Shown piece by piece: positions 8,255 through 20,439 of a stretch of 64,000 nt of DNA. Each line of letters begins with the position of its first letter. The stretch's first letter is position 1. Under the pieces are notes generated by a model. The model did not search any database. It worked only from the letters and a program-made list of their open reading frames with translations, and was not told the origin of the DNA. The DNA is from Piscinibacter aquaticus (GTDB lineage: Bacteria; Pseudomonadota; Gammaproteobacteria; Burkholderiales; Burkholderiaceae_C): the NCBI GenBank assembly GCA_007994965.1, contig VOPW01000001.1, positions 1,240,001 through 1,304,000 on the forward strand, written 5' to 3'. Both the position numbers and the translations under genes were made by a program.

Positions 8255-8860
8255 TCACAGCGGGTTGAGCGACTTCTCCGGACGGTAATGCGTGTAGCCG
8301 ACGCTCGCGCCCGCGCGCAGACCGGCGCCGAGGCGGATCGGCGCCAGCGTCACGCCATCGAGCCGCTGGTAGTTCACGCCGACGCCCCCGACGTAGTACA
8401 GGCTGCCGTCGACGCCCGGGTAGCGCTTGAAGATCGCCTGCACGTCGGGCAGCTTGTAGACGAGGACGAAGACCTTCGACGCATTGGCACCCAGGTCGAA
8501 ACCGATCGAGGGGCCTGCCCAGTAGACCTTCTTCGTTGCGCCGGACTTCAGCACCAGTTCGCCTTCACCATAGCGCACGCCGGCCGTGACGGCCGCCGCC
8601 ACTTCCTCGCCGCGGATGTAGCCGTTCGGCCGCCCCTGCTCGCGGAAGGCCTTGGCGATCACCTGCGCGAGACCTTCGGTGGTCTGGCCGAAGAAGTCGG
8701 TGGCGGCCTTGAGCGTGCCGGCTTCGTCGTAGGTGCTGTCGTCGGTCACGTCGGCCGCGAGGGCCAGTGCCGGCGCGGCCAGCGCGAGCGAGCCGGCGCC
8801 AGCACGGATCAGCCAGTCACGGCGGGTGGTTTCGAGGATGCGAGAGCGAGTGTCGATCAT
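8255..8860 (-). CDS. DUF1134 (EipA-like) envelope protein
   Basis: Intact protein of 201 residues with a Tat-like or Sec signal (arginine-rich start, then AGAGSLALAAPALALAADV). The conserved core includes ATDFFGQTTEGLAQVIAKAF, GYIRGEEVAAAVTAG, YWAGPSIGFDLGANASKVFV and YVGGVGVNYQR, which I recognise as DUF1134. The Brucella member EipA is a periplasmic beta-barrel protein needed for envelope integrity. A strong ribosome-binding site (AAGGAGAAAAG) precedes ATG 8860. It is a monocistronic unit, divergent from the small LexA-controlled gene at 9038. Confidence 0.85.
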   Translation of the reverse strand: MIDTRSRILETTRRDWLIRAGAGSLALAAPALALAADVTDDSTYDEAGTLKAATDFFGQTTEGLAQVIAKAFREQGRPNGYIRGEEVAAAVTAGVRYGEGELVLKSGATKKVYWAGPSIGFDLGANASKVFVLVYKLPDVQAIFKRYPGVDGSLYYVGGVGVNYQRLDGVTLAPIRLGAGLRAGASVGYTHYRPEKSLNPL

Positions 8861-8987
8861 GTCTTTTCTCCTTGCGGCTCCGGGAAACGGAACCGAGGGC
8901 CGGACCTTAGGCGCCCGCGATCGACAAGGGTTTGTCCGAATGTGGCGGGATGTTCCGATGTAACGGCAGGGGCATCTCCAGGCCGGC

Positions 8988-9016
8988 TTGTGCGCAGCAC
9001 TGTTGTTATATACAGT
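8988..9016 (+). promoter_or_regulatory. LexA-controlled promoter (SOS box 9000-9015)
   Basis: The SOS box CTGT-N8-ACAG occupies 9000-9015. A sigma-70 promoter overlaps it: -35 TTGTGC at 8988-8993, a 17-bp spacer, -10 TACAGT at 9011-9016. The imuA promoter at 19620-19648 has the same layout, with the same spacer and the box beginning 11 bases before the -10 element. LexA bound here would block RNA polymerase. Confidence 0.8.
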
Positions 9017-9037
9017 AGTGGCATCAAGGAGGTTTCG

Positions 9038-9163
9038 ATGAACTCACTGCACCGCCAGACCTATCGCCCGGCCCCCGATCGCACGCCCACGTGGCTGCGC
9101 CGCCTCTGGGCCCTGGCTCTGACCCCCGCGCCGATTTCGACGCCCCAAAGACAAAGCGCCTGA
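9038..9163 (+). CDS. SOS-regulated small protein of 41 residues, function unknown
   Basis: A short open frame starts at ATG 9038 behind an unusually strong ribosome-binding site (AAGGAGG, 7 bp upstream) and a LexA-controlled promoter. Its stop codon lies inside the left arm of a 10-bp terminator hairpin. The product is basic, with an arginine- and proline-rich start, a central hydrophobic stretch WLRRLWALALTP and a polar tail. Length and control recall SOS-induced peptide toxins such as TisB or division inhibitors, but the hydrophobic part is short and I recognise no homologue. It could also be a frame-shifted fragment, though promoter, RBS and terminator frame it tightly. Confidence 0.6.
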   Translation: MNSLHRQTYRPAPDRTPTWLRRLWALALTPAPISTPQRQSA

Positions 9164-9185
9164 CTCCGTGAGGAATCAGGCGCTT
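9154..9185. terminator. bidirectional hairpin terminator between small SOS gene and tRNA-Ala
   Basis: Perfect 10-bp inverted repeat (AAGCGCCTGA at 9154-9163, TCAGGCGCTT at 9176-9185) with a 12-nt loop. On the minus strand it is followed by TTTGTCTTT, so it ends tRNA-Ala transcripts well. On plus it directly follows the small SOS gene, whose TGA is part of the stem. Confidence 0.8.
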
Positions 9186-9195
9186 CTGTGTGTGG

Positions 9196-9270
<75 letters not shown>

Positions 9271-9324
9271 ACGACAACGCGCATTCTAGCAAACTCGCGG
9301 GGCCTCACTCCTGGAGCTCACCGC

Positions 9325-10178
9325 ATGGCCCGCCCCGACCCGACCTGGCTCGACGCCCAGTACAACAACCGCGCCCGCGTTCCCGAGGCGCCGCAGATCC
9401 TGGAGCGCTGGGCCAATGCCTCGGCGCTGGCGCGCGCGCAGTCCGACTGCGTGCTCGACGTTGCCTACGGCGGTGCGCCGGGCGAAACGCTCGATGTCTT
9501 TCGCACCACCGCGCCCGATGCGCCGGTGTTCGTGTTCATCCACGGCGGCTACTGGCGCGCGCTCGACAAGCGCGACCATTCGTTCGTCGCGCCCGCGCTG
9601 GTGGAGGCCGGCGCGATGGTCGTCGTCCCGAACTACGCGCTGTGCCCGGCGGTGACGATCGAACAGATCACGCTGCAGATGGCGCACGCCATCGCCTGGG
9701 TGTGGCGCCATGCGCGCGAGCACGGGGCGACCCGAGGCGCATCGTCGTCGGCGGGCATTCGGCGGGCGGGCATCTGGCGGCGATGCTGCTGAACTGTCGC
9801 TGGCCGCAGCTGGCGCCCGATCTGCCGGCCGATCTGCTGCGCTCCGCGCTGTCCATCTCGGGCCTGTTCGAGCTCGAGCCGATTCGCCACACCACCTTCC
9901 TCGCACCCGATCTGCGCCTCACCGAAGCCTCGGCGCAGCGGCTCAGCCCGGCGCTGCTGCCGGCGCCGCCGGGACGGCTCGCGGCCGTGGTGGGCGGTGA
10001 CGAGAGCGAGGAGTTCCTGCGCCAGAACCGGTTGATCCGGGAGGCCTGGGGCGAGCGTGCCGTGCCGGTGTGCGAGTCGATTCACGGCACCAACCACTTC
10101 ACCGTGCTGCACGACCTTGCCGATGCGAGCACGCGTCTTCATGCGATCGTGCTGGAGTGGCTTGGCCTGCGCACGTGA
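9325..10178 (+). CDS. alpha/beta hydrolase (esterase or arylformamidase-like)
   Basis: Cytoplasmic hydrolase of about 284 residues. The oxyanion-hole motif HGGYWRALDKRDHSF is at residue 73, and the nucleophile elbow GHSAGGHLAAML is near residue 142. A late aspartate (GGDESEEFL) and histidine (HGTNHFTV) can complete the triad. This pattern matches the HSL/BD-FAE group, including kynurenine formamidases (KynB-like), but no kyn genes are nearby, so a general esterase is equally likely. One frameshift near 9729 lies in a G run. It starts 55 bp beyond tRNA-Ala, on the opposite strand. Confidence 0.82.
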
Positions 10179-19619: not shown

Positions 19620-19648
19620 TTGCACCAAATACTGTATGAAAATACAGT
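19620..19648 (+). promoter_or_regulatory. LexA-controlled imuA promoter (SOS box 19632-19647)
   Basis: The SOS box CTGT-N8-ACAG is at 19632-19647. The overlapping promoter has -35 TTGCAC (19620-19625), a 17-bp spacer and -10 TACAGT (19643-19648). imuA starts at 19656, only 8 bp after the -10 element, so the transcript would be nearly leaderless. The layout equals that of the small SOS gene at 8988-9016. Confidence 0.82.
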
Positions 19649-19655
19649 ATTCTCC

Positions 19656-20407
19656 ATGGACGCCATGCCCGCCGCCGCCCTCGCTCCGCAGGATCTGCAC
19701 CCCGCGCTGTGGCTGGGCCATCAGCTCGGCCGCGCGGCCGGCGCCGGCGTGCCCAGCGGCTTTGCCGCGCTCGACCGGCATCTGCCCGGCGGTGGCTGGC
19801 CGCGCCGCACGCTCACCGAGCTGCTGCTGCCGCACCCCGGCGTCGGCGAGGTGCGCCTGCTCGCGCCCAGCCGGCCGCTGCGCAGCGCAGCGGCCGGCTG
19901 GTGATGCTGTTCGATCCGCCAGCGCAGCTCTCGGCCTGGGCGCTGGCCCAGCTCGGGCTCGATGTCGGCCAGCTGCTCGTGGTGCAGACGCGCCAGCGCG
20001 TGGCGCCGCAGGTGCTGCCGGGGCCGACAGCCTCTGGGCCTTCGAGCAGGCGCTCAAGAGCGGCCATGTCGGCGCGCTGGTCGCCCTGGCTGCCGCCGCG
20101 GCTGCGTGCCGAGCGGCTGCGCCGGCTGCAGCTGGCCGCGCAGGCGCACGACGGTGTCGCCTTCGTGATGCGCGAGCTGGCTGCCGCCGAGCGCCCGAGC
20201 GCTGCGCCGCTGCGCCTGTCGCTGCGCGCCGCCGGGCCCGACGCGCTGGCGCTGCGCCTGCTCAAGCGCCGCGGCCCGCCGCTGGAGTCGCCGATCACGC
20301 TGGCGCTGCCGCCGGTGCTGTCGGAAGCGGCGCACGCCCGCCGGCGCGTCGAGCGCATGGCGAGCGTGCCCTCGCTGGCGGTGGCCACCTTCGTCGACGT
20401 CGGCTGA
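19656..20407 (+). CDS. imuA: SOS mutagenesis protein ImuA
   Basis: About 250 residues, RecA/SulA-like fold, partner of ImuB in error-prone lesion bypass. Recognisable parts: HPALWLGHQLG, GFAALDRHLPGGGWPRRTLT, LLAPSRPL, VMLFDPPAQLSAWALAQLGL, then LRLSLRAAGPDALALRLLKR and the C-terminal SVPSLAVATFVDVG. The frame shifts near 19895 and 20027 and again before 20100. LexA control is direct through the promoter at 19620. ImuB starts 33 bp downstream. Confidence 0.84.
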
Positions 20408-20439
20408 GCGGTCGTGGCGCGCTTCTTCTCCTTCCTGCC

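Follow-up and report, generated by a model that had tools for sequence, protein, structure and literature searches.

A conserved LexA-boxed gene for a short basic peptide in a group of Burkholderiales, a candidate damage-induced inhibitor

Described SOS inhibitors and the locus in the window

SulA of Escherichia coli is an SOS-induced, folded protein, larger than the peptide considered here. It acts on FtsZ (PF03846; PMC9578287), and small SOS division inhibitors unrelated to SulA are described from other lineages as YneA and SosA (PMC13396833, PMC6851548, PMC9578287), both of which are membrane proteins (PMC9578287). The 29-residue SidA of Caulobacter is described as an SOS division inhibitor of the inner membrane that interacts with FtsW and blocks division through FtsW/FtsN (PMC4211646), and DinQ, which with TisB belongs among the small SOS-induced peptides, as a single-transmembrane peptide accompanied by antisense RNAs (PMC3567139, PMC11575346). 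The peptide reported here resembles SidA in its size, its SOS control, and its proposed role as an inhibitor unrelated to SulA but, unlike SidA, has no transmembrane stretch; the two were compared by description. The same feature separates it from YneA and SosA, likewise compared by description only, and from TisB and DinQ, with which it shares small size and a predicted SOS induction and from which it may also differ in its RNA partners, the DNA around it holding no known RNA family besides a tRNA. With SulA it has in common a predicted SOS induction and a similar proposed role, but not size.

The gene lies in a window of 64,000 nucleotides (the whole stretch of Piscinibacter aquaticus DNA that was analysed, to which the coordinates below refer). 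The first-pass annotation of the window had proposed a stand-alone SOS-boxed gene with a perfect LexA box over its promoter and a very strong Shine-Dalgarno sequence, and these elements are all present. A -35 element TTGTGC (8988..8993, plus strand) is separated by 17 nt from a -10 element TACAGT (9011..9016, plus strand), the LexA box CTGTTGTTATATACAG (9000..9015, plus strand) has its right half inside the -10 element, and a Shine-Dalgarno sequence AAGGAGG, read from the sequence (9026..9032, plus strand), precedes the ATG at 9038-9040. The gene for EipA (PF06577, equivalent to DUF1134; 8255..8860, minus strand) is divergent from the peptide gene, and that for tRNA-Ala (cgc) (9196..9271, minus strand) converges on it. 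No sigma-70 site appeared in the output of a mechanical scan of 8500-9600, so the promoter in the window rests on comparison with relatives. The perfect box by itself is weak evidence at this locus: two perfect boxes were observed in the window against 0.53 expected, at least two occurred in 11 of 100 shuffles, and the genome as a whole holds 14 sites of the perfect-box pattern against 13 for a reversed control pattern, so that the former is not commoner. The second perfect box of the window (19632..19647, plus strand) stands before imuA and is an internal positive control; apart from the box of the peptide gene, the genome has perfect boxes at the start, or immediately upstream, of the genes for DNA polymerase IV, ImuA (the box just named), and a radical SAM protein of the PA0069 family. 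A further, AT-rich perfect box is found at G000:C1:2626174-2626189 (L008).

A frame of 41 codons does exist at 9038-9163, as annotated, but the frames of the relatives are only about 27 codons long (26-35 residues, median 27) and follow the pattern R-x-x-Y-x-P...P-x-W-L-x-R-[ILV]-W-x-W-[LF]-stop. The window copy matches the family profile with an E value of 2.9e-11 over profile positions 1-25 and diverges afterwards. It retains the family frame to codon 25 (9112), and with it the core motif up to W24; the C-terminal W-x-W-[LF]-stop is missing from the assembled frame, and the common W-L-stop stands one frame over, at 9114-9122; we describe the copy as a frame-broken relative. The peptide gene is taken to span 9038..9122 (plus strand), one base more than 28 codons. 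Accordingly, the core quoted in the first-pass annotation, WLRRLWALALTP, agrees with the family through WLRRLWA and is out of frame beyond that point. What follows (9113..9163, plus strand) is an out-of-family tail, which is absent from the relatives read and probably untranslated in the true gene; judged against these relatives, the length of 41 residues is probably wrong. A truncation by an indel, in which the frame would open a longer known gene such as one for a sulA-type inhibitor, is rejected on the relatives read, which are short.

The imuA gene (at 19656, 10 kb from the peptide gene) begins with 82 residues that match ImuA, but its reading is scattered in pieces across all three frames. 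The gene that follows it, which we take to be imuB-like, is apparently also shifted (window 19632-20420 and on). The assembly (4.57 Mb in three contigs, scored 77% complete) appears to contain one-base indels; because imuA is frameshifted and the genome is scored 77% complete, an assembly indel is likelier than a real 41-residue product, and the tail of the window copy is probably an artefact of such an indel. If the frame break is a real mutation, the local gene may be dead.

A hairpin reported as a terminator that includes the stop codon is present at 9154..9185 (without an assigned strand), between the peptide gene and the converging tRNA gene, and was not listed by the mechanical scan of 8500-9600. 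Because the tRNA-Ala (cgc) gene has its 3' end about 10 nt before the hairpin, this structure probably terminates transcription of the tRNA, or acts in both directions, and the stop codon inside it is best explained by the frame difference. In an Rfam search of window positions 8800-9400, the tRNA alone reached a gathering score. A weak Rfam match to the ftsZ-DE RNA (window 9150-9222, minus strand; 20.9 against a gathering score of 72.2 bits) overlaps the hairpin and the tRNA and is probably due to chance.

LexA-type control across relatives

The region upstream of the peptide gene was compared among 52 distinct members kept by a motif filter. Within 100 nt upstream, 41 of the 52 have a perfect LexA box, and 48 have one if a single mismatch is allowed; in 1,678 control windows taken from these loci, the corresponding counts are 2 and 26. 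Further, TTG stands exactly 17 nt before a TACAGT-like -10 element in 37 members. Two or more box-like sites lie upstream in 21 of the 52, which suggests tight repression. Loci that the filter dropped and that hold a peptide match of at least 25 bits are mostly repeats of kept members. Five are distinct (the window copy, L107, L108, L109, and L111), and a perfect box precedes each of them. Four kept members have no box (L060, L062, L104, and L105). In the first three, the peptide is the second gene after a small protein, P69 (described below), and the box before P69 is perfect in L060, has two mismatches in L062, and is absent by this measure in L104, where we count three mismatches before the peptide and three before P69; in L105, a perfect box stands before a frame further upstream, whose resemblance to P69 is weak.

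We also read 26 weaker places found with the first profile, nine of which have a perfect box and two a box with one mismatch. The other 15 comprise four operons in which P69 comes first (L115, L122, L126, and L128), L112 (a place apparently identical to L105), L124 (which belongs to the family but, with four mismatches, has no box in the stretch read), and nine chance-like places. In a later test, a broader profile gave 17 new places, 15 of which were fetched (G172 and G280 were left out). The C-terminus marked 13 of the 15 as genuine, and each of these has a box no more than 110 nt away (six perfect, seven with one mismatch); both of the remaining two are chance matches, and neither has a box. 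The box was not used as a criterion in either profile search, and one of the 13 (G258) had been glimpsed beforehand. From this comparison of sequences, we conclude that the LexA box, the promoter, and the ribosome site are conserved before the peptide gene, and we regard it as nearly certain that this is a conserved SOS-controlled peptide gene.

Distribution of the peptide family and the linked protein P69

The first-pass annotation had recognised no homologue, but many were found. When the genus was searched with the 41-residue product as a query, short homologues were returned, with frames mostly of 27-28 codons and each with a LexA box upstream at no more than one mismatch. Clear homologues occur in six of seven same-genus relatives (L016-L021), and a paralogue is present in the same genome as the window; the best match in G006 (L022) resembles chance. 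Among 299 genomes of the taxonomic family, 51 matched the first profile (E<=0.01, partly by chance) and 63 the broader profile, 57 of them at E<=1e-4. Because 242 of the 299 have no match at E<=1e-4, the peptide is no checkpoint common to the whole family. In a class-wide sample, 184 further genomes (including at least one family member, G120) gave no peptide match, and an order-wide search of 300 genomes (at least nine from the family) with a narrower profile gave three weak, chance-like matches outside the family, none ending in W-x-W-[LF]. A scan of named genomes returned 37 loci, nearly all from the Rubrivivax-Rhizobacter-Ideonella-Azohydromonas group or from Burkholderiales metagenome-assembled genomes; it required PxWLRR[IV]WxW and is therefore unusable for invariance there, and many of its loci come from genomes already counted without names. 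One match, in Acidimicrobiia (L110; 19 bits), is probably chance. The carriers belong to the Burkholderiales and include Rubrivivax, Rhizobacter, Ideonella, Azohydromonas, Piscinibacter, and others.

The ratio pN/pS across 47 aligned sequences is 0.52 in frame compared with 0.97 and 1.35 in the other frames; this set was chosen by the motif filter, so that invariance at the letters fixed by the filter is partly circular. In a diverse alignment, the most constant residues are R6, Y9, P11, P17, W19, W24, and W26. We conclude from these substitution patterns that the open reading frame is conserved at the protein level. Pfam, NCBIfam, PADLOC, and PHROGs yielded nothing significant for the members tried, in keeping with the original proposal of a candidate new component.

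The position of the gene is not conserved; it stands at differing places in different genomes. A LexA box and open reading frame between EipA (DUF1134) and tRNA-Ala had been suggested as a check in relatives. An EipA match at E<=1e-20 was found in two of the seven same-genus relatives; neither stretch has a perfect LexA box, and the peptide genes of both genomes lie on other contigs, so that a conserved genomic position is rejected. Insertion linked to tRNA genes was also rejected, since a tRNA occurs anywhere in just 11 of 57 loci scanned, as was an origin in phages or plasmids, in which tblastn found no match for the peptide (at the limited sensitivity of short queries); 41 pattern matches on viral contigs included no confirmed peptide relative. 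A leader peptide of a downstream gene is unlikely, given that the window copy faces a converging tRNA gene, that 20 of the 37 named loci are without any P69 match, and that the third genes looked up are not common to the loci.

P69 is a protein of about 69 residues with the consensus MNAPLLPEVLL..EGVxRYVWxxRFGxMLIEVxxGxxxVNGxxVEP, and comparison of the loci shows that the peptide is often encoded in a two-gene operon with this second SOS-boxed small protein. The two are adjacent in 16 of the 37 named loci and in 12 of 25 genomes with P69 (overlapping sets), one of the 12 being G258, in which P69 has internal stops and the peptide scores low under the first profile. The peptide is present in 19 of the 25 P69 genomes (Fisher p about 1e-10, relatedness ignored). 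It comes first in 15 of the 16 named pairs, and P69 comes first in seven distinct places (L060, L062, L104, L115, L122, L126, and L128). Three of these copies (L115, L126, and L128) occur in a single genome, G073. The 25 P69 genomes are among the 299 of the family, and an order-wide sample of 199 other genomes (at least four family members) has no P69. Sixteen copies have no adjoining peptide, and of the 15 that were read (all except L162), five have a perfect box, six have one mismatch, and four have neither; judged by these boxes, P69 may be SOS-controlled independently of the peptide. The solo copies after a perfect LexA box are L146, L147, L149, L157, and L159.

The P69 members tried gave no significant match in Pfam, NCBIfam, PADLOC, or PHROGs, and a comparison with plasmids gave one weak match (E 0.5). 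P69 was modelled as a four-strand meander, its N-terminus at low confidence (pLDDT 66.5), and the model has no match in PDB or BFVD at E<=0.001. The genome of the window has its own peptide-P69 pair at about G000:C1:1856629-1856961 (L232, minus strand), with a one-mismatch box. This operon consists, in order, of an intact peptide gene, P69, and a DUF433 protein whose start overlaps the stop codon of P69. In G202 (L047 / L233), the peptide-P69 operon lies about 240 nt before mraZ, MraZ being the third gene, an adjacency matched, among the loci compared, in the G202 copies only. The mraZ gene is the first of the division and cell-wall cluster.

Candidate functions of the peptide

The peptide is basic and polar (median GRAVY -0.91 and net charge +5 in the 52 members), with a median best 15-mer hydropathy of -0.43 and a longest uncharged run of five residues at the median, and so no transmembrane stretch. 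Its model shows a helix near the C-terminus only, with low confidence elsewhere (pLDDT 69.5, pTM 0.23). Because residues are constant over about 20 positions and the C-terminus is fixed, we argue for a protein partner, and the constant Y, P, P, W, and W together with that C-terminus suggest a specific one.

Our explanation is that the gene encodes a LexA-repressed, 27-residue basic peptide of a new family that inhibits growth or division, and we give this statement as a whole an even chance. LexA bound on the -10 element very likely keeps the gene off, and DNA damage, through RecA-driven cleavage of LexA, would then release a short and well translated message. The N-terminal half (R-x-x-Y-x-P) might remain extended, and the C-terminal helix P-x-W-L-x-R-I-W-x-W-L might dock on a protein, perhaps at the membrane surface. 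The peptide could in this way be an inhibitory ligand that delays growth or division while damage is repaired, with P69 possibly as a co-effector or modulator. That it is an inhibitor at all, a part of the explanation based on regulation, size, and sequence character, could equally be right or wrong, and a small division inhibitor is our leading guess. Counting against it are the lack of a significant fold or family match to any inhibitor and the many family genomes in which the peptide found no match. An inhibitor is the best guess because of the LexA-type control, the frequent double sites, and the lack of a stand-alone SulA among the profile matches in the 299 family genomes. A SulA profile matched 21 of these genomes, 20 in frames of 246-387 residues (ImuA-sized by length) and one in a 97-residue frame with two stops, and no stand-alone SulA was found among these matches. 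Confusion of imuA with sulA is mentioned in a review (PMC9578287). No SulA (PF03846) match was obtained for the window peptide or for three relatives.

A membrane toxin like TisB or DinQ, inserting in the inner membrane and depolarising it, would also account for the SOS control, the small size, and the positive charge, and a likeness to TisB had been proposed at the outset. The last 10 residues, a Trp-rich end, have a favourable interfacial energy (median -5.3 kcal/mol), and double LexA-like sites (21/52) also fit. However, the one defining feature of TisB that is well testable here, a transmembrane stretch, is lacking, no RNA but the tRNA reaches an Rfam gathering score near the gene, and the constant residues and fixed C-terminus suggest a specific partner; on these features, membrane toxicity of the TisB kind is less likely, and we consider this reading rather unlikely.

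Instead of inhibiting growth, the peptide might assist SOS repair or mutagenesis by binding RecA, ImuA/ImuB, or the sliding clamp. Its box type is shared with imuA and dinB of its own genome, imuA is 10 kb off in the window, and P69 is a second small SOS-boxed protein. Yet no clustering with repair genes was seen in the loci read, no clamp-type motif is visible by eye, and only part of the family has the peptide, and we hold such a role to be unlikely. Concerning the window copy alone, the frame break and the intact paralogue with P69 in the same genome could mean that it is a decaying, non-working solo duplicate beside that pair. This we find improbable: promoter, box, and Shine-Dalgarno sequence are intact, 25 codons are family-like, and the broken imuA nearby points to an assembly error.

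Returning to the inhibitor, a likeness to the FtsZ tail offers a more specific version. The tail [DE]IPA[FY]LR[RK]QAD is found in all 28 readable FtsZ genes (29 were fetched), and its P-x-aromatic-L-x-[RK] core recurs in the peptide: 46 of the 52 members contain P.[FWY][LIM].[RK], which a proxy proteome contains about 0.0016 times per 27-mer, and 40 contain the strict form P-x-[FWY]-L-[RK]-[RK]; the motif was, however, picked after looking, and the filter behind the 52 itself fixes its P and W. The peptide differs in being basic and in extending to I-W-x-W-L, and position 21, an invariant R in FtsZ tails, is variable in its distant members. An FtsA-like membrane tail was rejected; the FtsA tails read end in W[FV]xxNF or FIVGNF and are not close. 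On this likeness, the peptide would mimic the C-terminal tail of FtsZ, fill the pocket of FtsA (or another reader) through its P-x-W-L-R-R helix, and unhook the Z ring, with P69 as a partner, a proposal that we offer as a long shot; if it is true, the SOS checkpoint would be a bare 27-residue decoy.

Least probable, and in our view very much so, is a ribosome-targeting or arrest peptide that slows translation during SOS: Y-x-P-[RK]-P, a motif like those of insect proline-rich antimicrobial peptides, occurs in 23 of the 52 members compared with about 0.0003 per 27-mer (proxy proteome of 73,542 residues; Y and the first P are fixed by the filter that chose the 52), but P13 is not constant (23/47), the C-terminal W-x-W helix has no counterpart, and the motif was picked after looking.

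We found no description of such a peptide from this group of Burkholderiales in the openly licensed literature. In bacteria that have no SulA, how division stops after DNA damage is known for few lineages. A conserved, compact SOS peptide and a linked small protein would be two candidate members of the SOS regulon, and both genes are short enough to be missed by routine annotation.
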